Shown here in pieces: positions 2,576-62,888 of a DNA stretch of 64,000 bases (its first letter is position 1; the number at the start of each line of letters is the position of its first letter). Under the pieces are notes generated by a model, which saw only the letters and a program-made list of their open reading frames with translations, was not told where the DNA came from and made no database searches. The stretch is from Rhodospirillaceae bacterium (GTDB taxonomy: Bacteria; Pseudomonadota; Alphaproteobacteria; UBA6615): the NCBI GenBank assembly GCA_018667335.1, contig JABIVD010000045.1, positions 1 through 64,000 on the forward strand. Reading direction: 5' to 3'. The position numbers and the translations under genes are program-made.

Positions 2576-3552
2576 TGAAGTACACGTTCGAAATCATCTG
2601 CATGCTCCTGATCGTTGGGCTGTTTGTCCTGACCCAGGTGGTCGGCAACCAGTTCTACTTCTTCATCGGCTTCGTGATCCTGCAATACATGGTCATGGCG
2701 ACCGCCTGGAATATTCTGGGTGGATATGGCGGTTACGTGAATTTTGGCAGTGCCGGGTTCCTGGCCACGGGGGCCTATACGGCGGTCGCACTAATCAACT
2801 TCCTCGACGTTGGTTTGGTGGAACAGATGGTCGCCGGCGGGATCTTCGCGGGTCTCCTGGGTCTCGCGACGGGCTACCTCACACTTCGCCTGCGCGGCGT
2901 CTATTTCGCCATTGCGACCCTGGCGCTCGCGATCATTCTCGAGACGGTCGTCGCCCATTGGGACTATGTCGGTGGCGCAGCCGGGACATCGATCCTGCCC
3001 AAGCGCAAGCCGGAACTCCTCGGAGAACTGATCGTTGACCGCAAGGCTGGCATCTTTGCCAACTACAAGGAATATCTGTTCTTCCTCATGGGGACCGTCG
3101 CGATCATCAGTGTCTGGGTCGCGCGGTATATCGAGAACAGCAAGCTCGGGCGCGGCCTGAATGCGATCAAGGACAGCGAGGAAGCAGCGGAATGCATGGG
3201 CGTTCCGACACTGCGGCTCAAGCTGATCGCAACCACAATCAGTGGCGCCATGATGGGCGTCGCAGGCGCACCTCTGGCGAGCTACCTGACGTTTATTGAC
3301 CCGCTCTCGGCCTTCAATCTGGAATATGCGATCAACGCGATCGCGATGCCGATGATCGGCGGCACGGTCAGCTGGGCCGGCCCGGTGATCGGCGCGTTGC
3401 TGCTGGGGACGGCGCAGCAGGTGTCTTCGCTCTGGATTCAGTCTGAACTGAACTTGTTGATTGTCGGCGTGGTCCTTGTGGTCTTCGTGATCATCGCGCC
3501 GGAGGGAATAATCGGCTGGTTCAGGAAATCACGTCAGGGGTCACGCCGATGA
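2575..3552 (+). CDS. livM: Branched-chain amino acid-type ABC transporter permease LivM
   Basis: Second membrane subunit, 325 residues, LivM family. It has an N-terminal hydrophobic pair, NILGGYGGYVNFGSAGF (the conserved region where LivM proteins read GY.G..SLG), ARYIENSKLGRGLNAIKDSE on a cytoplasmic loop (the probable ATPase coupling segment), and GGTVSWAGPVIGALLLG near the end. The start is the ATG overlapping the livH stop. The stop at 3552 overlaps livG by four bases (ATGA), so livHMGF is one tightly coupled operon. Confidence 0.92.
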   Translation: MKYTFEIICMLLIVGLFVLTQVVGNQFYFFIGFVILQYMVMATAWNILGGYGGYVNFGSAGFLATGAYTAVALINFLDVGLVEQMVAGGIFAGLLGLATGYLTLRLRGVYFAIATLALAIILETVVAHWDYVGGAAGTSILPKRKPELLGELIVDRKAGIFANYKEYLFFLMGTVAIISVWVARYIENSKLGRGLNAIKDSEEAAECMGVPTLRLKLIATTISGAMMGVAGAPLASYLTFIDPLSAFNLEYAINAIAMPMIGGTVSWAGPVIGALLLGTAQQVSSLWIQSELNLLIVGVVLVVFVIIAPEGIIGWFRKSRQGSRR

Positions 3553-4283
3553 GCGACGCACTTCTAAAAATTGACTCCATCTCGAAGCATTTCGGTGGTT
3601 TCACCGCGCTCTCGAACGTCACCACCGAAGTTGCACCAGGTGAGCGGTTCGGTCTGATCGGCCCCAACGGTTCCGGCAAGACGACGATGATCAACTGCGT
3701 GTCCGGGTTGCTGCGCAACGAGGAAGGCAAGATCATCTTCGACGGCAAGGATGTGACGGACCTCAAGCCGCACAAACGCACCGGCGCCGGAATTGCCCGC
3801 AGTTTCCAGATTCCCCGGCCCTTTCACACGATGACCGTGATCGAGAATCTGATGATCCCGGCGGAGTTCGTGGGGCATCATCGGGGCGAGAAGGGTGATG
3901 ACAGGGCCGAGGCCATGGAAATCCTCGAGACCATGGGGATGGCCGAGAAGGCCGATGATACGACTCTGGACCTGACCCAGATCGAGCTGCGCAAGCTTGA
4001 GCTGGCGCGGGCGATGGCCGCCAAGCCGAAACTTTTGATTTCGGACGAGGCCATGGCGGGCCTGACGGGGCAGGAGGTCGATGAGGTGATCGATATTCTG
4101 TTCAAGATGAACGAACGCGGGATCACGATCATCATGATCGAGCACATCATGCGGGCGGTGATGCGTTTCTCTCAGAGGATCATTTGCCTCGACGCGGGCC
4201 AGTTGATTGCCGAGGGAACCCCTGAGGAAATCGTAAAGAACAAGGACGTCGAACGGGCGTATCTGGGCAGCACCGATGGTTGA
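3549..4283 (+). CDS. livG: Branched-chain amino acid-type ABC transporter ATP-binding protein LivG
   Basis: Cytoplasmic ATPase of 244 residues. Walker A is GPNGSGKT at 38-45. The C-loop is atypical (LTQIE at 142-146 instead of LSGGQ) and Walker B reads LLISDE at 162-167, followed by AMAG where most family members have PAAG. Divergent C-loops are common in LivG-type subunits, and the paired LivF carries a canonical one, so the dimer can still hold one consensus ATP site. The gene overlaps livM by 4 bp and livF by 8 bp. Confidence 0.92.
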   Translation: MSDALLKIDSISKHFGGFTALSNVTTEVAPGERFGLIGPNGSGKTTMINCVSGLLRNEEGKIIFDGKDVTDLKPHKRTGAGIARSFQIPRPFHTMTVIENLMIPAEFVGHHRGEKGDDRAEAMEILETMGMAEKADDTTLDLTQIELRKLELARAMAAKPKLLISDEAMAGLTGQEVDEVIDILFKMNERGITIIMIEHIMRAVMRFSQRIICLDAGQLIAEGTPEEIVKNKDVERAYLGSTDG

Positions 4284-5007
4284 GCTTTTTATCAAGAACC
4301 TGAATGCCGGCTATGGCGCAGTCACCGTTCTGAACGACGTGACGATCGATGTCCCAAACGGGCAGACCGTTGCGTTGCTCGGGACCAACGGCAACGGCAA
4401 GTCGACGCTCATGCGTTGTATCTCGGGCCTGATCAAACCGACCGCTGGGTCCATCGAGTTGCATGAAGATGACGGCACGGTCATCGATCTGACGGCGGCG
4501 ACGCCCCAGGAGATCGTTGAGGCCGGTGTCGCCCAGGTCCCCGAAGGCCGTCGGCTGTTCCCCGATTTGACTGTCGAGGAAAACCTCACACTCGGCGCGT
4601 ACCGCAAGGCGGCCCGCGCGACACTTGCGACCAATCTTGATTACGCGTTCACATTGTTTCCCCGGCTTGCCGAGCGGAAAACACAGCTTGCCGGCAGCAT
4701 GAGTGGCGGCGAGCAGCAGATGCTGGCCGTGGGGCGCGCGCTGATGAGCGATCCGCGGCTTCTCCTGGTCGACGAACCGTCAGTAGGTCTCGCGCCGATC
4801 CTGGTCAGTCAGATGATCACGAAAATCGGTGAACTCGGTGAAAGCCGGGGTCTCACGATCCTGATGGCCGAGCAGAATTTCAATCAGGCCATCCGTATCG
4901 CAGACAAGGGCTACATCATCGTCCATGGCGAGATCGCGTTCGCCAGCAAGGATGCGGCTGATCTGCGCGAAAACGACATGGTGAAAACCTACTACCTGGG
5001 CGCATAG
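4276..5007 (+). CDS. livF: Branched-chain amino acid-type ABC transporter ATP-binding protein LivF
   Basis: Second ATPase subunit, 243 residues, LivF family. Walker A GTNGNGKS is at 36-43, the canonical signature MSGGE at 142-146, Walker B LLLVDE at 162-167, and the LivF-type QVPEGRRLFPDLTVEENL around 88-104. It is the last gene of the livHMGF operon and converges on the CoxL-like gene across about 40 bp holding a short weak hairpin (CAGGC/GCCTG at 5012-5025). Confidence 0.93.
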   Translation: MVELFIKNLNAGYGAVTVLNDVTIDVPNGQTVALLGTNGNGKSTLMRCISGLIKPTAGSIELHEDDGTVIDLTAATPQEIVEAGVAQVPEGRRLFPDLTVEENLTLGAYRKAARATLATNLDYAFTLFPRLAERKTQLAGSMSGGEQQMLAVGRALMSDPRLLLVDEPSVGLAPILVSQMITKIGELGESRGLTILMAEQNFNQAIRIADKGYIIVHGEIAFASKDAADLRENDMVKTYYLGA

Positions 5008-5048
5008 CCGCCAGGCGACCGCCTGACGGAGAAATCCCGATTATGTAA

Positions 5049-7388
5049 CTACGCCGCCTTGGGTGACTGCATCAGTTCCCAGATCCGCTCGGGCGTGGCC
5101 GGCATGTCGACATGCGACACACCGAACTCCCGCAACGCATTGGCGATCGCGGCAATGACGACCGGCGGTGCAACCAGCGCACCGGCTTCGCCGGCACCCT
5201 TCACGCCCAGCAGGTTTGTCTTGCAGGGCACCTCGTTGGTGTCGAGCTCGATCATCGGCAAATCATCGGCCCGCGGCATGGTGTAGTCCATGAAGGAGCT
5301 GGTGAGGAGCTGACCGTTCTGGGGGTCGTAGAACGTGTTTTCCAGGATCGCCTGTCCAACACCCTGTGCCACGCCGCCGTGCACCTGACCGGCAACGAGC
5401 ATGGGATTGATCACCTTGCCGACATCGTCGATTGCGCAATAGCGAACGATATCGATCACGCCGGTGTCCTCGTCGATCTCCAGCTCGCAGATGTGGCAGC
5501 CATTGGGATAGCTCCAATTCTCGATCGTGTGGGTGTCCGTCCCGTTGAGCGCACCCTGCAGTTCCTCGGGAATTTCGGTCGAGGTGCGGGCGTGCTTGGC
5601 GACGTCGAACAGGGTCACCGTGCGGTCGGTGCCGGCGACACGGAACTCGCCTTCCTTGAATTCGATATCCACGGCCGCAGTCTCGAGCATTTCCGAGGCG
5701 ATCAGGATGCCCTTGGAGATCACCTCGTCACTGGAGTTCAGTGCCGCGACACTGCCGATATGGCTGGGGCGCGAACCATGACTGCCGCCGCCGCTGGGCA
5801 AGTTGTCACTGTCGCTGGTGTCGATGTGCACCTGATCGAACTCGACACCGAGTTTCTCGGAGATGATTTGCATGAACGACGTGTCGTGGCCCTGGCCCAT
5901 CGGCTGGGTGCCGACCCGCACGATCACCTGGTCGTCTTCGACTTCGACCTCCGCGCTTTCGGTCGGATTGCCGGCCGTGGTCTCGAGATACTGGCTGACA
6001 GCGATGCCGCTGAGTTTGCCGCGCTTACGGGCTTCGGCCCGGCGTGTCTCATGGGTGCCCCAGTCGGCCATCTGCGCCACGAGGTCCATATTCTCCTCGA
6101 AGGAACCGCTGTCGTAGGTCGTGCCGACGGCATTGGTGTAGGGGAAGCGGTCATTGGCGATCAGATTTCGTCGCCGGATCTCCAGCGGGTCGATGCCGAG
6201 GTCGTGGGCAGCAACATCCACCAGCCTTTCCATCACATAGATGGCCTCGGGACGCCCTGCGCCACGGTACGGCCCGACCGGGGCGGTGTTGGTGACGACG
6301 CATCGCACTTCCACATCCGCATGCGGAACGTCATAGACGCTGGTCAGGATTTTCGGGCCGATCTGGGTGGGAACCGAAACACCGGCGGAGCAGGAATAGG
6401 CGCCGATATTGGCGACCGTTTTCACGCGCACGGCGAGAAACTTGCCATCCTTGTCCATGGCCAGCTCGCAATCGGAGATGTGGTCGCGGCCGTGGAGGTC
6501 GCTCAGGAAGGCTTCGGTCCGGTCGCTAATCCAGCGTACGGTTCTCCCGATGCGCTTGGCGGCGACGAGCACGAGGACCTGTTCGGGGTAGGGATGGGTC
6601 TTCATGCCGAACCCACCGCCGACATCGTCGACCAGCACGCGGACATCGGCAGGGTCACATTTCAGGAATGAATTCGCGATCCAGTCACGCAGCATGTGCC
6701 TGTTCTGGTTCGAGGTGTAGACCGTGTAACGGCCGCTGTCGGTGTCGTAGCTGCCGATCGCGCCGCGCACTTCCATGGAGTTCTGGACGATCCGCTGATT
6801 GACCAGGCGGACCGATGATACATGGGCCGCCTCGTCGAAGGCTTTGCCTGTTGCATCAGAATCGCCGATCTGGGCCTGGAACAGGAAGTTGTTGGGAACG
6901 TCATCCCAGAGCTGGATGGCGTCGTCGTCCATCGCGCGGTCCGTCCCGACGACAGAGTCGATCGGAGCGTAGTCCACCTCGACCACCTCGGAGGCGTCGC
7001 GTGCCTGCTCCAGGGTTTCGGCGACGATGAACGCCACGGGGTCGCCGACATAGCGTGCCCGGTCGGATGTCAGGGCATACTGCGGCGGATAGATCAGGGG
7101 GGATCCGTCAGGTTTCGTCAGCGATGCAAAGAATGGCGGCGGTCCGGGAAAGGCGCCGATGCCGTCATCGGCGAGATCCTGGCCCGTAAGGACAGCCAGG
7201 ACACCCGGCATGGATTTCGCGGCGGAGGTGTCGATGGACCGGATATCGGCATGGGCATGCGGCGAGCGGAGCACGAAGCCCATCGTCTCACCCTCGCGCG
7301 GCGGGTCGTCGTTGAATTTACCGCGACCCGTCAGAAGCCTTGGATCTTCGGTGCGCCGCACCGGTTGACCGACACCATATTTCGCCAT
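5049..7388 (-). CDS. Xanthine dehydrogenase-family molybdopterin-binding subunit (CoxL-like, form II)
   Basis: Large catalytic subunit of a CO dehydrogenase/xanthine dehydrogenase-family molybdenum hydroxylase, 779 residues. It shows the ald_Xan_dh_C domain (MAKYGVGQPVRRTEDPRLLTG start), GGGFGMK at 257-263 for the cofactor, PYRGAGR at 373-379, and GVKGAGEAG with the presumed catalytic Glu near residue 734. YRGAGR is the form II pattern; true CO dehydrogenases have AYxCSFR, so CO oxidation is unlikely and the substrate is unknown. The start at 7388 is chosen for GGGGGAAGA just upstream. Partner FAD and 2Fe-2S subunits are not adjacent; the only candidates lie at 58.2-59.5 kb. Confidence 0.93.
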   Translation of the reverse strand: MAKYGVGQPVRRTEDPRLLTGRGKFNDDPPREGETMGFVLRSPHAHADIRSIDTSAAKSMPGVLAVLTGQDLADDGIGAFPGPPPFFASLTKPDGSPLIYPPQYALTSDRARYVGDPVAFIVAETLEQARDASEVVEVDYAPIDSVVGTDRAMDDDAIQLWDDVPNNFLFQAQIGDSDATGKAFDEAAHVSSVRLVNQRIVQNSMEVRGAIGSYDTDSGRYTVYTSNQNRHMLRDWIANSFLKCDPADVRVLVDDVGGGFGMKTHPYPEQVLVLVAAKRIGRTVRWISDRTEAFLSDLHGRDHISDCELAMDKDGKFLAVRVKTVANIGAYSCSAGVSVPTQIGPKILTSVYDVPHADVEVRCVVTNTAPVGPYRGAGRPEAIYVMERLVDVAAHDLGIDPLEIRRRNLIANDRFPYTNAVGTTYDSGSFEENMDLVAQMADWGTHETRRAEARKRGKLSGIAVSQYLETTAGNPTESAEVEVEDDQVIVRVGTQPMGQGHDTSFMQIISEKLGVEFDQVHIDTSDSDNLPSGGGSHGSRPSHIGSVAALNSSDEVISKGILIASEMLETAAVDIEFKEGEFRVAGTDRTVTLFDVAKHARTSTEIPEELQGALNGTDTHTIENWSYPNGCHICELEIDEDTGVIDIVRYCAIDDVGKVINPMLVAGQVHGGVAQGVGQAILENTFYDPQNGQLLTSSFMDYTMPRADDLPMIELDTNEVPCKTNLLGVKGAGEAGALVAPPVVIAAIANALREFGVSHVDMPATPERIWELMQSPKAA

Positions 7389-7503
7389 TTCTTCCCCCTG
7401 CCTGAAATTCATTATTCGGGATATTATGAAACGAACGGGCCGACCGTGCGACACTCAATGCGCGGCGATGGGCCGAATAAGTGGTTTTTTTGGGGGAAAC
7501 ACT

Positions 7504-8451
7504 GTGTCGATACCAAACCAGCGCACCGTCTACCTGAACGGTGAGTACATTCCCGAGAATGAGGCGCGGATTCCGTTCCGCGATCGCGGGGTGAAGTATG
7601 GCGATGCCGTATTCGACACCACGCGCACATTCGGTCACGAGATATTCAAACTGCGTGAGCATCTGGAGCGCCTCTACCGCTCCCTGCGTTACATCGGGAT
7701 CGACCCTGGGATGTCGCTGGACGAGATGGCAGCCGTGACCGAAGAGGTCGTACGCCGAAATCTGCCGACGATTGCCGCAGACGAGGACCTCTGGGTCTCC
7801 CAGCGGATCACCCGCGGGATCGTCGACCCGAACGAACGCTCCGCCTGGCCGGACTATGTGGGGCCGACGGTCATCGTCGAATGCCTGCCGTTGCCGCTTT
7901 CCACCCGCGCCAAGGTCTACCGGGACGGGATCGATATGATCGTATCATCGGTCCGCCGCACCGCGCCGGACATGCTGAGCCCGCGGGCCAAGACCCACAA
8001 CTATCTGAACCTGATCATGGCCGACGAAGAAGTCTCGGCGCAGAACCCCGAGGCCTATGCCCTCATGCTCGACCACAACGGCAACGTCGCCGAGGGACGA
8101 GGCAGCAATGTGTTCTTCGTCTCCGAAGGACGGCTCTATACGCCGCAGGAACGCTATGTGTTGCCGGGGATCAGCCGACAGACCGTGATGGAGCTGGCGG
8201 TGGAGTTGGGCATTCCGTGTGCGGAAAAGGATTTCGACCTCTACGACGCCTACAACGCGGATGAGGCATTCATTTCGTCAACGAGCTTCTGCATCTGCCC
8301 GTGCCGCAGCGTCAGCGGTCGTGTGTTCGGCGATGGCGCCGTGCCGGGACCGGTCACCAGGCGGCTGATGGACGCCTATGTCGAGCATGTCGGTTTCGAC
8401 TGGGTCGAACAATATGCGCGCTACCCGGTCGAGGACGCCCCGCGGCTTTGA
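7504..8451 (+). CDS. Class IV aminotransferase (BCAT / D-amino acid aminotransferase family)
   Basis: PLP-dependent enzyme of 315 residues, fold type IV, cytosolic. The PLP lysine is K163 in RAKTHNYLNLIMA, and NVAEGRGSNVFFV at 194-206 is the conserved phosphate-binding region. RDRGVKYGDAVFDTTRTF near the N-terminus is the usual opening motif. I choose GTG 7504 because GGGGGAAA sits at 7492-7499; upstream in-frame ATGs lack a ribosome-binding site. It is divergent from the CoxL-like gene with 115 bp between. Relatives transfer amino groups from branched-chain or D-amino acids, or act as (R)-amine transaminases; the substrate cannot be fixed by eye. Confidence 0.9.
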   Translation: MSIPNQRTVYLNGEYIPENEARIPFRDRGVKYGDAVFDTTRTFGHEIFKLREHLERLYRSLRYIGIDPGMSLDEMAAVTEEVVRRNLPTIAADEDLWVSQRITRGIVDPNERSAWPDYVGPTVIVECLPLPLSTRAKVYRDGIDMIVSSVRRTAPDMLSPRAKTHNYLNLIMADEEVSAQNPEAYALMLDHNGNVAEGRGSNVFFVSEGRLYTPQERYVLPGISRQTVMELAVELGIPCAEKDFDLYDAYNADEAFISSTSFCICPCRSVSGRVFGDGAVPGPVTRRLMDAYVEHVGFDWVEQYARYPVEDAPRL

Positions 8452-8467
8452 TCCCGGCGCTGATCAC

Positions 8468-9268
8468 CTAGGGCGTTTGCTTCGCGAACCAGTCGGTCAG
8501 GGTCTGCATCGACTTCTCCGCCTCTTCCATCAGGAAGAAGTGGCTCGATTTCTCGAAGATGACCGTCTCGCTGTTGGCGATGCCCGCAGACAATTCGTCG
8601 GTGCCCTGCATCGAACATACCGGGTCCTGGCGCCCGGCCATGATCAGGGTCGGGGAAGTCATCTCGCCCAGCCTGTCGCTGGTGTCATGGGTCAGGGCCG
8701 TGTGATTGAGATTCACATAGGAAATCTTGCTGCGCGCCTCGTTCCCGACCAGCGCCTCGATGCGCGCGATGGCCTCGGGGTTGTCGTTGTAGAAGGCGGG
8801 TGCCACGAACACATGCGCGGAATGGCGGGCCCAATCGGCCCAGTTGTCGCGCCATTCCAGGACTTCGCGCATATTCTCCAGGATACGCTTGCCGATCCGG
8901 TCGACGGCGGGCGTGGAGGCGGCGAGGGTCATCGACTGAATGCGCTCAGGCGCGCGCAACATCATGTGCTGACCGATCAGGCCGCCCAGGGAACGCCCGA
9001 CGACATGGGCCTTGTCGACCCCGAGATTGTCCATCAGCGCGATCATCGTGTCGGCCAGTTCCTCGGTCGTGACCGGCGCGTCGACCGCCGAACTCTCGCC
9101 CGAGCCCGGATTGTCCATCGCGATGACGCGGTACGTGTCCTTGAAGGCTGCAATCTGCGGCAGCCATGCGGTGTGGTCGCCGGCCAGACCGTGGATCAGG
9201 ACGATGGGAAATCCGTCGCCGTCCTCGATGTAGTTCACATCGAAGCGGCCGCAGTTGACGATTGGCAT
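8468..9268 (-). CDS. Alpha/beta hydrolase (tandem copy 2)
   Basis: Alpha/beta-hydrolase of 266 residues, probably a soluble esterase or hydrolase of small acyl or cyclic substrates. The oxyanion motif HGLAGD is at 26-31, the nucleophile elbow GRSLGG gives Ser93, and SSHFF near residue 246 supplies the His. It is a clear paralogue of the next gene upstream (identical length, shared MPIVN-GRFD-NYIE start and HGLAGDHTAWLPQ block). AAGGA precedes the ATG at 9268. The pair reads on the minus strand downstream of an ABC operon but beyond its terminator. Confidence 0.88.
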   Translation of the reverse strand: MPIVNCGRFDVNYIEDGDGFPIVLIHGLAGDHTAWLPQIAAFKDTYRVIAMDNPGSGESSAVDAPVTTEELADTMIALMDNLGVDKAHVVGRSLGGLIGQHMMLRAPERIQSMTLAASTPAVDRIGKRILENMREVLEWRDNWADWARHSAHVFVAPAFYNDNPEAIARIEALVGNEARSKISYVNLNHTALTHDTSDRLGEMTSPTLIMAGRQDPVCSMQGTDELSAGIANSETVIFEKSSHFFLMEEAEKSMQTLTDWFAKQTP

Positions 9269-9290
9269 TGCTGTAATCCTTCTTGCTTGA

Positions 9291-10091
9291 TCAGGCGGCG
9301 TTCTTGGCGAGCCAGGTTTCGATCGTGCTCATGGCCTTCGCGGCTTCCTCCATCAGGAAGAAATGACTGGATTCCTCGAAGAGCGTGAACTCGGCGTTGG
9401 GCAGTTTCTCCATCATCCAGTTCTGCGCGGTCATCGAGCAGATCGGGTCGTAGCGTCCGCCCATCACGAGGGTCGGTGCCTGGATTTCGCCCAGTCGATC
9501 GAGCGCGTCATGCTCGATGCAGGCGGTGGCGAGATTGCTGTAGGAGACCATGTCCCTGTCTTCACCGCTGACCAGGGCCGTGATCTTCTCGATCAACTCC
9601 GGATTGGCATTGAAGAAACCGGGGGACACGAACAGGTAGACTGCGTGGGGTGCCCATTCGGCCCAGCTCGGGCGCCATTCCAGCAATTGTTGCAGGTTGC
9701 CGATGATCTGCGCGCCCAGCGGATCGAGGCGCGCGAAGGAGGCGGCAAGCGCCATCGAGCGCACGCGCTCTGGCGACTTCAGAGCCATGTGCTGGGCGAC
9801 GGCTCCGCCCATGGAGCGCCCGATGATCTGGGCTGAGTCGATCCCGAGCTGGTCCATCAGGCCCAGGGTCGCATCGGCGAGATCCTCTGTGCCGGCGGGT
9901 TCGGAGACGAGGGAGCTGTCGCCCGAGCCGGGGTTGTCGAAGGCGATGACCCGGTAGCGGTCCTTGAGCGCTGCGACCTGGGGCAGCCAGGCGGTGTGAT
10001 CGCCCGCCAGTCCGTGGATCAGGAGGACCGGTTCGCCGGCTCCTTCCTCGATATAGTTGATGTCAAAGCGGCCTGTGTTGACGATTGGCAT
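9291..10091 (-). CDS. Alpha/beta hydrolase (tandem copy 1)
   Basis: Paralogue of the neighbouring 8468-9268 gene, also 266 residues. HGLAGD is at 26-31, GRSMGG gives nucleophile Ser93, and SSHFF supplies the catalytic His. Length is identical and most of the first 110 residues match or are conservative, which points to a local duplication rather than two unrelated recruits. GAGGAGAAA sits before ATG 10091. It is followed by the second copy after 22 bp, so the two form one transcription unit. No signal peptide; substrate unknown. Confidence 0.88.
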   Translation of the reverse strand: MPIVNTGRFDINYIEEGAGEPVLLIHGLAGDHTAWLPQVAALKDRYRVIAFDNPGSGDSSLVSEPAGTEDLADATLGLMDQLGIDSAQIIGRSMGGAVAQHMALKSPERVRSMALAASFARLDPLGAQIIGNLQQLLEWRPSWAEWAPHAVYLFVSPGFFNANPELIEKITALVSGEDRDMVSYSNLATACIEHDALDRLGEIQAPTLVMGGRYDPICSMTAQNWMMEKLPNAEFTLFEESSHFFLMEEAAKAMSTIETWLAKNAA

Positions 10092-60810: not shown

Positions 60811-61713
60811 TCAATCCTGCTTTGGATTGTTCAACAGATAGTGGGCGATGGCCTCAAGGTCCTCGTCGGTCAGCCATGAGGTCCCGTCGCGAACGACCTC
60901 ACCCATGCTTCCGCCCACCACGTCGCCGTTGGGTTTGGTGCCGAACCGCAGTCCGAAGGCGAGATTGGTTTCGGTCCAACCCTTTTCGCGAAGTGCCTCG
61001 GCAGTTATTTGCGGTGATCGTTCATTTCCGGGCAGCTCCCCGGCGCCATGCAGTGCCTGTTCTGCGTTCCGGCCGCCAAGCGGGTTTCGTGGTGTATGGC
61101 AGGCGCCACAATGCGCCGGACCCGTGACGATATATTTGCCGCGATTCCAGAGGTCGCTTTCGCCGGGCTGTGGCTGAAAAACTCCGGGATTGAAAAACAG
61201 GCGCTTCCAGCCGCGCAACGTCCAACGCTGATTGAACGGAAAACTGATCTCCTGGGGCTTTGACGGTGACGGAATTCCCGGGACTGTTTGGAACGCCGCC
61301 CACAGGTCTGCAACGTCCTGGTCGGTGAGCTTTGTATAGAAGCCAAAGGGAAACGCCGGATAGTAAGGCTTGCCGTTTGGCGAAATGCCGAGACGCAGGG
61401 CGCGGGCAAAATCGTCGAGTGTCCAGTTGCCCAGGCCGTGCGGTTTATCAGGGGTGATGTTCGGGCCGAAGAACGTCCCGAATTGCGTTTGCAGTGGCGG
61501 CCCGCCCGCGAGGAGCGCGCCTCCGGCGGCTTCATTGGTATGGCAAGCGATGCAGCCCGACATGCGCGCGACGTAGGCGCCACGTTCGGCATCTCCTTCA
61601 CGCACGGTGATGATTTCAGAGGGAACCGTCTCGCCGGTCGACAAGAAAACGGTGCCAGCCGTTAGAAATATCGCGAGACCCGCAAGCGCCGCGGCGAACA
61701 ATCCACGCTTCAT
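60811..61713 (-). CDS. Diheme cytochrome c
   Basis: Periplasmic cytochrome of 300 residues. The N-terminus is a signal or membrane anchor (MKRGLFAAALAGLAIFLTAG). Heme sites are CIACH (C54, C57, H58) and CGACH (C202, C205, H206). The layout resembles cytochrome subunits of alcohol or aldehyde dehydrogenases. ATG 61713 avoids overlap with the previous gene; an ATG at 61755 is possible. It is the last gene of the cytochrome operon and converges on GST. Confidence 0.9.
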   Translation of the reverse strand: MKRGLFAAALAGLAIFLTAGTVFLSTGETVPSEIITVREGDAERGAYVARMSGCIACHTNEAAGGALLAGGPPLQTQFGTFFGPNITPDKPHGLGNWTLDDFARALRLGISPNGKPYYPAFPFGFYTKLTDQDVADLWAAFQTVPGIPSPSKPQEISFPFNQRWTLRGWKRLFFNPGVFQPQPGESDLWNRGKYIVTGPAHCGACHTPRNPLGGRNAEQALHGAGELPGNERSPQITAEALREKGWTETNLAFGLRFGTKPNGDVVGGSMGEVVRDGTSWLTDEDLEAIAHYLLNNPKQD

Positions 61714-61724
61714 GGGGATGACTT

Positions 61725-62324
61725 CTACTGCTTCTTGCGAAACTGGGTATGGCACGCACTGCAGGTTTGCGTCAGGCGTGCAAAGGCGGCATTCGGTGCC
61801 ATTGTCGCCAACACCGCCGGATCGTTCATCGGAGATCCGCTGGCAGATCCCATCATCGGGTTGGATCGGCCCATCGGGCTTCCGCCGCTCGACAGTCCAC
61901 CACCTCGCCTGGCCGCGCCCATGCCTGCGCCGCGAGGGTTGTCGGCGGCGTCCGCCAGCGCTCGCGCGTATACCGAAAGGTCATCCGCGAGTTTGGAGAA
62001 TTTATCCCAGTCCTGCCAGATGGCCGGCAACGCCTCACTCGGACCATTAATGCTTCCCTCGGGAAACAGCTTGGTCGTTTGCTCGCCGCCATGGGTCCCG
62101 ATGAACCGGGCGGCAGCGCGGACCTGCTCGGCGTCATAGGGCTTTGTGCCCTGGAACATTTCGGTGATCGTTTTCATCGACTTCCCGACCGACGCCATGA
62201 GATCCATGCGTTCTTTCACGATGCCTGTGGCACCGCCATGGGCATGCGCCAGGCTCGTTGCCGCCATGATCGCGAGGGTGCCGCCGATCAGGTATCCGAC
62301 ATTTCTTTTGGCGGTTTTATGCAT
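61725..62324 (-). CDS. Cytochrome c' (class II) with a Gly/Ser/Met-rich insert
   Basis: Class II cytochrome c of 199 residues: signal peptide (cleavage near ALAHA, residue 27), a four-helix-bundle body and a C-terminal heme site CSACH (C188, C191, H192). Between about 129 and 175 there is a low-complexity Gly/Ser stretch carrying Met at 135, 151, 157, 158, 166 and 175, not normal for cytochrome c', which has short loops there. Met-rich loops can bind Cu(I), so a copper role is possible. It lies 16 bp after the monoheme gene. Confidence 0.88.
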   Translation of the reverse strand: MHKTAKRNVGYLIGGTLAIMAATSLAHAHGGATGIVKERMDLMASVGKSMKTITEMFQGTKPYDAEQVRAAARFIGTHGGEQTTKLFPEGSINGPSEALPAIWQDWDKFSKLADDLSVYARALADAADNPRGAGMGAARRGGGLSSGGSPMGRSNPMMGSASGSPMNDPAVLATMAPNAAFARLTQTCSACHTQFRKKQ

Positions 62325-62340: not shown

Positions 62341-62826
62341 TCAACGTTGAGTCGTCATGGCGGCTTGCCGGTCTTGGATCTTCTTCGGCCATTGCGAGCG
62401 AATGAACGCCAGTGCCGCCCAAATTTCATCGTCCGAAAGCTTGCCGTCATAAGCCGGCATGTCGGTTTCGATCGGGCGCCCGACCAACGCAGACAGGCCG
62501 TACTTGGTGAGATTGAAAAGCGTTTGGTCGTCGTGATGCCAGGTGTGCCCGGACGCGTCATGCGGCGGGGCGGGCAGGCGGCCATTGGCATTGCGCGTGC
62601 GCCAGTTCGGCTGCCCTTCGAGTTTGGCGCCGTGGCAGGCGGCGCAGTTCGCGACGTAGACCTGTTGGCCGCGTTCGACCGACTGGTCTGCCTGGTTGCT
62701 TGCCTGCGAATTATCGTCGATTGCGCCGCCATCGAACGCGACATAGGCAGCCGCACCCACGGCCAGGATCGCCGCGAGACCGATCAGCTTGGTGAGATGT
62801 TTGCGTGCAGCTTTACTCGTTGCCAT
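62341..62826 (-). CDS. Monoheme c-type cytochrome
   Basis: Periplasmic or membrane-anchored cytochrome c of 161 residues. An N-terminal hydrophobic segment (LTKLIGLAAILAVGAAAYVAF) precedes the heme site CAACH (C61, C64, H65), and a Met ligand candidate is in TDMPAYDGKLSDDEIW near residue 130. It is the first gene of the three-cytochrome operon. The ATG at 62826 has no ribosome-binding site and lies at the predicted transcription start of a MerR-type promoter. Confidence 0.88.
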   Translation of the reverse strand: MATSKAARKHLTKLIGLAAILAVGAAAYVAFDGGAIDDNSQASNQADQSVERGQQVYVANCAACHGAKLEGQPNWRTRNANGRLPAPPHDASGHTWHHDDQTLFNLTKYGLSALVGRPIETDMPAYDGKLSDDEIWAALAFIRSQWPKKIQDRQAAMTTQR

Positions 62827-62863
62827 GGAACCTGTTTACAGGTTCCAGTAGCTGGAGTGTCAA
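62827..62863 (-). promoter_or_regulatory. MerR-metalloregulator-type promoter with nested dyads, probably leaderless
   Basis: On the minus strand TTGACA (62863-62858) is followed by a dyad TCCAG-CTA-CTGGA (62856-62844), then GGAACCTG-TAAA-CAGGTTCC (62846-62827) ending at the ATG. A 19-bp spacer leads to TAAACA (62838-62833), the stretched spacing typical of MerR-family (CueR, HmrR, PbrR) promoters; a 17-bp spacer to TGTAAA is the alternative. The predicted start point for the 19-bp reading falls on the A of ATG 62826, so the mRNA may be leaderless. No MerR gene is in the window. Confidence 0.65.
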
Positions 62864-62888
62864 GAAGCAACAGGCCCACGGCCCCCGT

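Follow-up and report, generated by a model that had tools for sequence, protein, structure and literature searches.

Results

Genes and Promoter Elements at the Locus

The DNA analysed, hereafter called the window, comprises the first 64,000 nucleotides of contig JABIVD010000045.1 from a Rhodospirillaceae bacterium, a marine alphaproteobacterium. On its minus strand, genes for a class I, a class II, and a diheme cytochrome follow one another in series behind a promoter, as the original prediction of three promoter-driven cytochromes had proposed, and the unit extends to position 60811, past the range of 62341-62863 considered there. The first and second genes are separated by 16 bp, the second and third by 11 bp, and none of the three proteins is covered by a specific NCBIfam model. 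The features of the locus are the following:

62872..62884, minus strand: terminator-like stem-loop with a T-rich tail, located between a methionine-synthase-like gene and the promoter (pattern scan)
62858..62863, minus strand: -35 box TTGACA (sequence; TTGAC is invariant in nine aligned operators)
62845..62855, minus strand: CueR/HmrR-type dyad CCAG-CTA-CTGG within the 19-bp spacer (core shared with the cueR promoter of this genome)
62833..62838, minus strand: -10-like box TAAACA at a spacing of 19 bp (-10 TA invariant at that spacing in nine operators)
62826..62847, no strand assigned: TGGAACCTGTAAACAGGTTCCA, a perfect palindrome of 22 bp that runs across the -10 box and takes in the A of the ATG
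62341..62826, minus strand: class I cytochrome c, CopJ-like, 161 amino acids, first gene of the operon (Pfam PF00034)
61725..62324, minus strand: class II cytochrome c of the c'/c-556 type, 199 amino acids (Pfam PF01322; structure model)
61800..61928, minus strand: Met-rich disordered insert of the class II protein, residues 133-175, located after the third helix and ahead of the haem helix
60811..61713, minus strand: diheme cytochrome c, 300 amino acids (Pfam PF00034; PDB sequence matches 8gy3 and 7w2j)

Read 5' to 3' on the minus strand, the promoter is TTGACA CTCCAGCTACTGGAACCTG TAAACA GGTTCC ATG, and the TTGACA, the two overlapping dyads, and the 19-bp spacer described earlier are all found in it. 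Such a spacer is expected of a CueR/HmrR-controlled promoter, and the CCAG-CTA-CTGG dyad is centred as in CueR/HmrR sites. Compared by hand with the CueR/HmrR consensus ACCTTCCAG-3-CTGGAAGG, which was taken from PMC1526738, the dyad agrees at 13 of 17 positions, the core CCAG-3-CTGG being exact, and with 12 of 15 matches the window operator departs further from the canonical form than any other operator compared. The -10-like box is weak (three of six positions of TATAAT), and a scan for sigma-70 promoters, which admits spacers of 16-18 bp only, calls no promoter here. The stem-loop would part the upstream methionine-synthase-like gene from the cytochrome transcription unit, such patterns being weak evidence with six in the region and 4.2 expected by chance. 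The 22-bp palindrome occurs as a single copy genome-wide, the next best match having three mismatches; it is kept with two mismatches in one genome of the same genus (L145 of G003) and is absent in other relatives. As a single-copy element partly kept in one relative only, it was rejected as a second regulon operator.

Translation Start of the First Cytochrome

The -35 box begins 37 nt ahead of the ATG of the first cytochrome at 62826, and a transcription start about 7 nt past the -10 box would coincide with this ATG. An earlier translation start is impossible because an in-frame TAA is situated four codons 5' of this ATG. Inspection of the sequence before the ATG found no Shine-Dalgarno motif; the second cytochrome gene, by contrast, has AGGA immediately 5' of its ATG, so that of these two genes only the second carries such a motif, and the lack of a ribosome-binding site claimed for the first is confirmed. 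With this geometry, the mRNA of the first cytochrome is probably leaderless and starts at the ATG. The distance of 37 nt recurs in three other genomes (L145, L148, and L152), and it amounts to 57 nt at L144, at L151, and in the paralogue of the window's own genome. Leaderless transcription as a general trait was rejected in view of the 57 nt in paralogues and some orthologues. For the window gene the proposed leaderless start is supported by the geometry, and the probably leaderless form is recurrent among relatives without being universal.

The Operator and the Predicted CueR Regulon of the Genome

A search of the window with the generic pattern TTGACNNTCCN7GGAA yields one exact match, and at up to one mismatch at least one match is obtained in 31 of 100 shuffled versions of the window; as evidence confined to the window, this pattern does not settle the matter. 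The promoter-like match might on this account be coincidental and the cytochromes ordinary respiratory genes, a pattern that is not rare at one mismatch speaking in favour of this view. Such a coincidence is nonetheless extremely unlikely, given that the site is placed in the same manner in front of orthologues and paralogues and recurs before this genome's own cueR. The more specific pattern TTGACNNTCCAGNNACTGGA is matched exactly at two places in the genome of 3.55 Mb, as against about 0.002 expected from base counts. One is the window promoter, and the other is the promoter just upstream of cueR (contig C5), where the operator recurs, again with a spacer of 19 bp. With the looser pattern TTGACNNTCCN7GGAAS, from which the cueR promoter site departs at one position, three exact sites are found in the genome. 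One lies in the window, and the others, C31:90865 and C31:95390, precede a second cytochrome trio and a DUF5676 gene, respectively. One-mismatch genome matches to the pattern are no commoner than those to the reversed control. When nine operators are aligned, the invariant parts are TTGAC, TCC, GGA, and the -10 TA, and the spacing is 19 bp. The multicopper oxidase genes on C19 and C37 of the same genome are not among the genome operator matches.

The second trio on contig C31 is complete, and its class II cytochrome is 78% identical to that of the window. Between its first and second cytochrome genes, an additional gene (1483-1881 in L009, the C31 locus) codes for a small protein containing Cys and His. 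A Crp/Fnr-type gene lies near the further CueR-type site that precedes the DUF5676 gene on this contig, and positions 866-5412 of L009 cover both the trio and that further site.

Three MerR_1 proteins are encoded in the genome and one alone has the CueR metal loop C-x7-C (CHGDDRPDC). This protein scores 170.7 bits with the NCBIfam equivalog model TIGR02044 (cutoff 147.4), and its gene overlaps a gene for a copper P-type (P1B) ATPase that scores 582 with TIGR01511 (cutoff 397). The two other MerR-type proteins were rejected as regulators, both being far below every metal-sensor cutoff. Control by another regulator of the MerR family, or in response to Zn, Cd, Pb, or Hg, has in its favour that promoters of that sort likewise have spacers of 19-20 bp and that the genome holds these two further, uncharacterised MerR-type proteins. 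It is nevertheless very unlikely in the light of their low scores, of neighbouring genes that are copper genes, and of a dyad core which fits CueR/HmrR ACCTTCCAG-3-CTGGAAGG and neither ZntR ACTCTGGAGTCGACTCCAGAGT nor MerR TCCGTAC-4-GTACGGA. The metal-sensing MerR-family promoter of the original prediction is supported by the operator shared with cueR, by the single metal-sensing MerR protein predicted, and by the operators of orthologues. Its copper or heavy-metal response can be narrowed to a predicted copper response by the regulator matching the CueR model, the overlapping copper ATPase gene, and the common operator. Control of the window promoter by CueR and copper is therefore considered highly probable.

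Operators and Copper Genes at Related Loci

In 11 genomes of the same genus or family, the exact operator pattern is found at 13 sites and the reversed pattern at one. Five of these sites precede orthologues of the CopJ-like cytochrome, four precede cueR, one a multicopper oxidase gene, and one a gene for a His-rich protein, and the remaining two are chance-like. The site of the His-rich protein, which is a secreted one, is of the CueR type and located 87 nt 5' of the gene (L142 of G011). Behind two of the four cueR sites, both in family genomes (L140 of G012 and L143 of G014), the gene order is cueR, CopJ-like cytochrome, and copA, coding for the copper ATPase.

For relatives of the class II protein in general, one genome per species was scanned, which gave at least 235 loci. 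The 80 taken for analysis belong mainly to marine Rhodobacterales and Rhizobiales, with some Oceanospirillales and others, and together with the loci of other searches they were clustered at 80% identity into 46 non-redundant loci. An operator-like site (at least 13 of 15 positions) lies within 2.5 kb upstream at 22 of the 46 c' loci, as against one of 920 Markov-shuffled controls, and at three of these 22 (L051, L088, and L116) the site fronts cueR and not the cytochromes. About half of the wider homologues have no recognisable CueR site in the 2.5 kb upstream, and therefore about half of the families may be controlled otherwise. At four loci of Rhodobacterales (L052, L058, L120, and L122), the centre between TTCC and GGAA has six bases, not seven, and this variant, for which a shift of the -10 box may be needed, stands before an L,D-transpeptidase gene. 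Genes for L,D-transpeptidases are present at 55 of 90 scanned loci in copper islands and often are the first gene 3' of the operator.

At 34 of the 46 non-redundant loci the fetched stretch contains at least one copper-type neighbour, by which we mean CueR, copper ATPase, multicopper oxidase, CopB, cupredoxin, or DUF411. The c' gene is followed by the diheme gene at 41 of the 46 loci, and a multicopper oxidase is encoded downstream at 23. The cytochrome module is also present on conjugative plasmids of marine bacteria, plasmid copies being located within copper islands of Thalassobaculum and Leisingera. On the Leisingera plasmid (L129), genes for CcmF-like, DsbE, CcmH-like, CcmI, and DsbD-domain proteins (3456-9807) adjoin the copper island.

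Properties of the Three Cytochromes

The first cytochrome has 60% identity, over 70% of its length, to a cytochrome c from the cop cluster on plasmid pMOL30 of Cupriavidus metallidurans CH34. In the family alignment the motif APPHDxxGHTWHHxD is nearly strictly kept, also in the Cupriavidus protein. The gene of the latter is flanked in the cop cluster by the genes for DUF411 and cupredoxin, and from this order we infer that it is copJ. Together with a class I CxxCH motif and a neighbourhood of copper genes, the APPHDxxGHTWHHxD motif, which as a criterion is defined in this analysis and has no published definition, makes the first cytochrome CopJ-like.

In the class II cytochrome, the haem motif CSACH is situated near the C-terminus, and this C-terminal CxxCH and a four-helix-bundle fold (PF01322) assign the protein to its class. 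AlphaFold2 predicts the helix bundle well; the fold matches cytochrome c' structures, with target-normalised TM-scores of about 0.79-0.86 for the best of them, and residues from about 127 to 165 have low pLDDT and no regular structure. The six Met noted earlier in the loop of this protein are indeed present (residues 135, 151, 157, 158, 166, and 175), a number at the low end of the family. Within the 52 residues before the haem motif, the median Met count is 11 in 83 copper-type sequences, a set that was not dereplicated, and one in 23 controls of the ordinary c' kind, L021 being the sole Met-rich exception among the latter. The Met of copper-type inserts often occur as MMGG repeats. Judged by sequence, the Met-rich insert is a hallmark of the family. 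Another residue, M43, is invariant across 45 homologues; its counterparts in the alignments are Met12, the axial ligand, in cytochrome c-556 (1s05) and residue 16, which belongs to the distal pocket, in the Alcaligenes cytochrome c'. With M43 at the position of the c-556 ligand, the haem is therefore likely to be electron-transferring and six-coordinate (c-556 type), in contrast to the five-coordinate, high-spin haem of cytochrome c' proper, which has no sixth ligand.

The diheme cytochrome matches 8gy3 with an E-value of 3e-54, most of its length being aligned.

Discussion

A Possible Role of the Cytochromes in Copper Defence

The operator, its regulator, the operon layout, the protein family, the Met-rich insert, and the copper neighbourhood can be read from the sequences themselves. 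Taken as a whole, our explanation, namely a promoter controlled by CueR (HmrR), three cytochromes belonging to a copper-defence regulon, and a relay that oxidises Cu(I) as the proposed mechanism, seems rather probable to us, and a copper-handling role of the three cytochromes is held with slightly greater confidence. For CueR binding, copper induction, leaderless start, Cu(I) binding, and electron flow, we infer the following course. Upon a rise of cytoplasmic Cu(I), CueR on the dyad, within a spacer that at 19 bp is over-long, would distort the DNA and so make the promoter usable for RNA polymerase; transcription would probably begin at the ATG and yield a leaderless mRNA. The three cytochromes would be exported and furnished with haem. 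With its Met-rich arm the class II protein may capture Cu(I) in the periplasm, and the electron of this Cu(I) would most likely pass to the class II haem, on to the diheme and CopJ-like cytochromes, and into the respiratory chain, with Cu(I) thereby being turned into the less toxic Cu(II).

It is the presence of a Met-rich flexible arm beside a haem which suggests a reading of Cu(I) capture and oxidation. The redox step, that is, a cuprous oxidase activity, falls somewhat short of an even chance in our estimation, and that the class II and diheme proteins form a haem-based cuprous oxidase under CueR, with electrons of Cu(I) feeding the respiratory chain, is tentative and on balance unlikely. 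As two Cu-oxidase_3 proteins are encoded in the genome, a cytochrome-based oxidase would not be the sole candidate for an oxidase.

Under the same CueR control, the cytochromes might only bind or buffer Cu(I) by means of their Met-rich and His-rich segments, as a periplasmic sponge or as a shuttle towards the multicopper oxidase or a different carrier, without copper being oxidised by haem. This possibility, which we regard as real if somewhat doubtful, is simpler than oxidation by haem and nearly as likely. The conserved special features are the Met-rich insert and the His-rich motif, Met-rich periplasmic copper-binding proteins are already known from work cited in PMC10092412, and the multicopper oxidase encoded downstream at half of the non-redundant loci could carry out the oxidation instead. 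However, binding as such leaves unexplained why haem proteins are retained together, including the diheme partner that is near-invariant in following the c' gene.

Again under CueR control, the cytochromes might be reserve electron carriers through which respiration is restored once the assembly of cytochrome c has been damaged by copper. Going by the title of a report by Durand from 2015, copper is said to be toxic to c-type cytochrome assembly, and the maturation genes of the Ccm/DsbE type near the c' gene and beside the copper island of the Leisingera plasmid fit the idea of such damage. A role as spare carriers is improbable to us, as it leaves the Met-rich insert unexplained and as the replacements would depend on the same damaged pathway.

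A copper-handling role of the kind we favour would link the best-known bacterial copper sensor to widespread cytochromes that are annotated simply as "cytochrome c," and would give them a function, in which a Met-rich arm attached to a haem protein binds Cu(I), and this binding may be coupled to respiration. A clear role would sharpen the annotation of copper-tolerance islands and might provide an alternative to multicopper oxidases in periplasmic copper defence. If the reading as a cuprous oxidase were true, copper detoxification would feed respiration.

Comparison With Known Systems

The original prediction knew of no description of a link between copper or heavy metals and such cytochromes. 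In this respect it holds in part only, since Permina et al. (2006; PMC1526738) predicted CueR/HmrR sites before Vibrio cytochrome genes and proposed these genes as candidates for the copper regulon. Moreover, copJ belongs to a classic copper cluster, and in Cupriavidus it is one of the cop genes whose expression rises under a mixture of metals (PMC11647585). The link is not wholly new; what does seem to be undescribed is the pair of Met-rich class II and diheme cytochromes in copper islands, as in the open-access literature we found no description of a Met-rich cytochrome in connection with copper, of this pair, or of its steady place in copper islands.

The CueR/HmrR regulon of PMC1526738 shares with the system described here the type of regulator, the 19-bp spacer, the dyad, the copper ATPase, and cytochromes as predicted members; its Vibrio members, however, are c553/c554 genes, whereas the window operon encodes three cytochromes, among them a Met-rich class II and a diheme protein. 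CopJ of C. metallidurans CH34 resembles the first cytochrome in identity, in the APPHDxxGHTWHHxD motif, and in the context of cop genes. Unlike the window operon, the pMOL30 cop cluster has a two-component regulator nearby instead of CueR, and no Met-rich c' was recognised adjacent to it.

Cytochromes c'/c-556 have PF01322, the helix bundle, and the C-terminal CxxCH in common with the class II protein, which differs from ordinary cytochromes c' by the Met-rich insert of about 40 residues ahead of the haem helix, and has Met at the distal position where the Alcaligenes protein has Leu16. Relatives of the diheme cytochrome are the cytochrome subunits of alcohol, aldehyde, and fructose dehydrogenases, which are membrane-bound enzymes. 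In contrast to these subunits, which exceed 440 amino acids, it is shorter and has two haem motifs, and unlike the dehydrogenase systems the window operon contains no dehydrogenase gene.

The multicopper oxidase CueO possesses a Met-rich segment that handles Cu(I). It is comparable to the class II protein in the way it may work, both being periplasmic and under actual or predicted control of CueR, with a Met-rich segment for Cu(I), but CueO employs copper cofactors in an unrelated fold, whereas the window protein carries haem.
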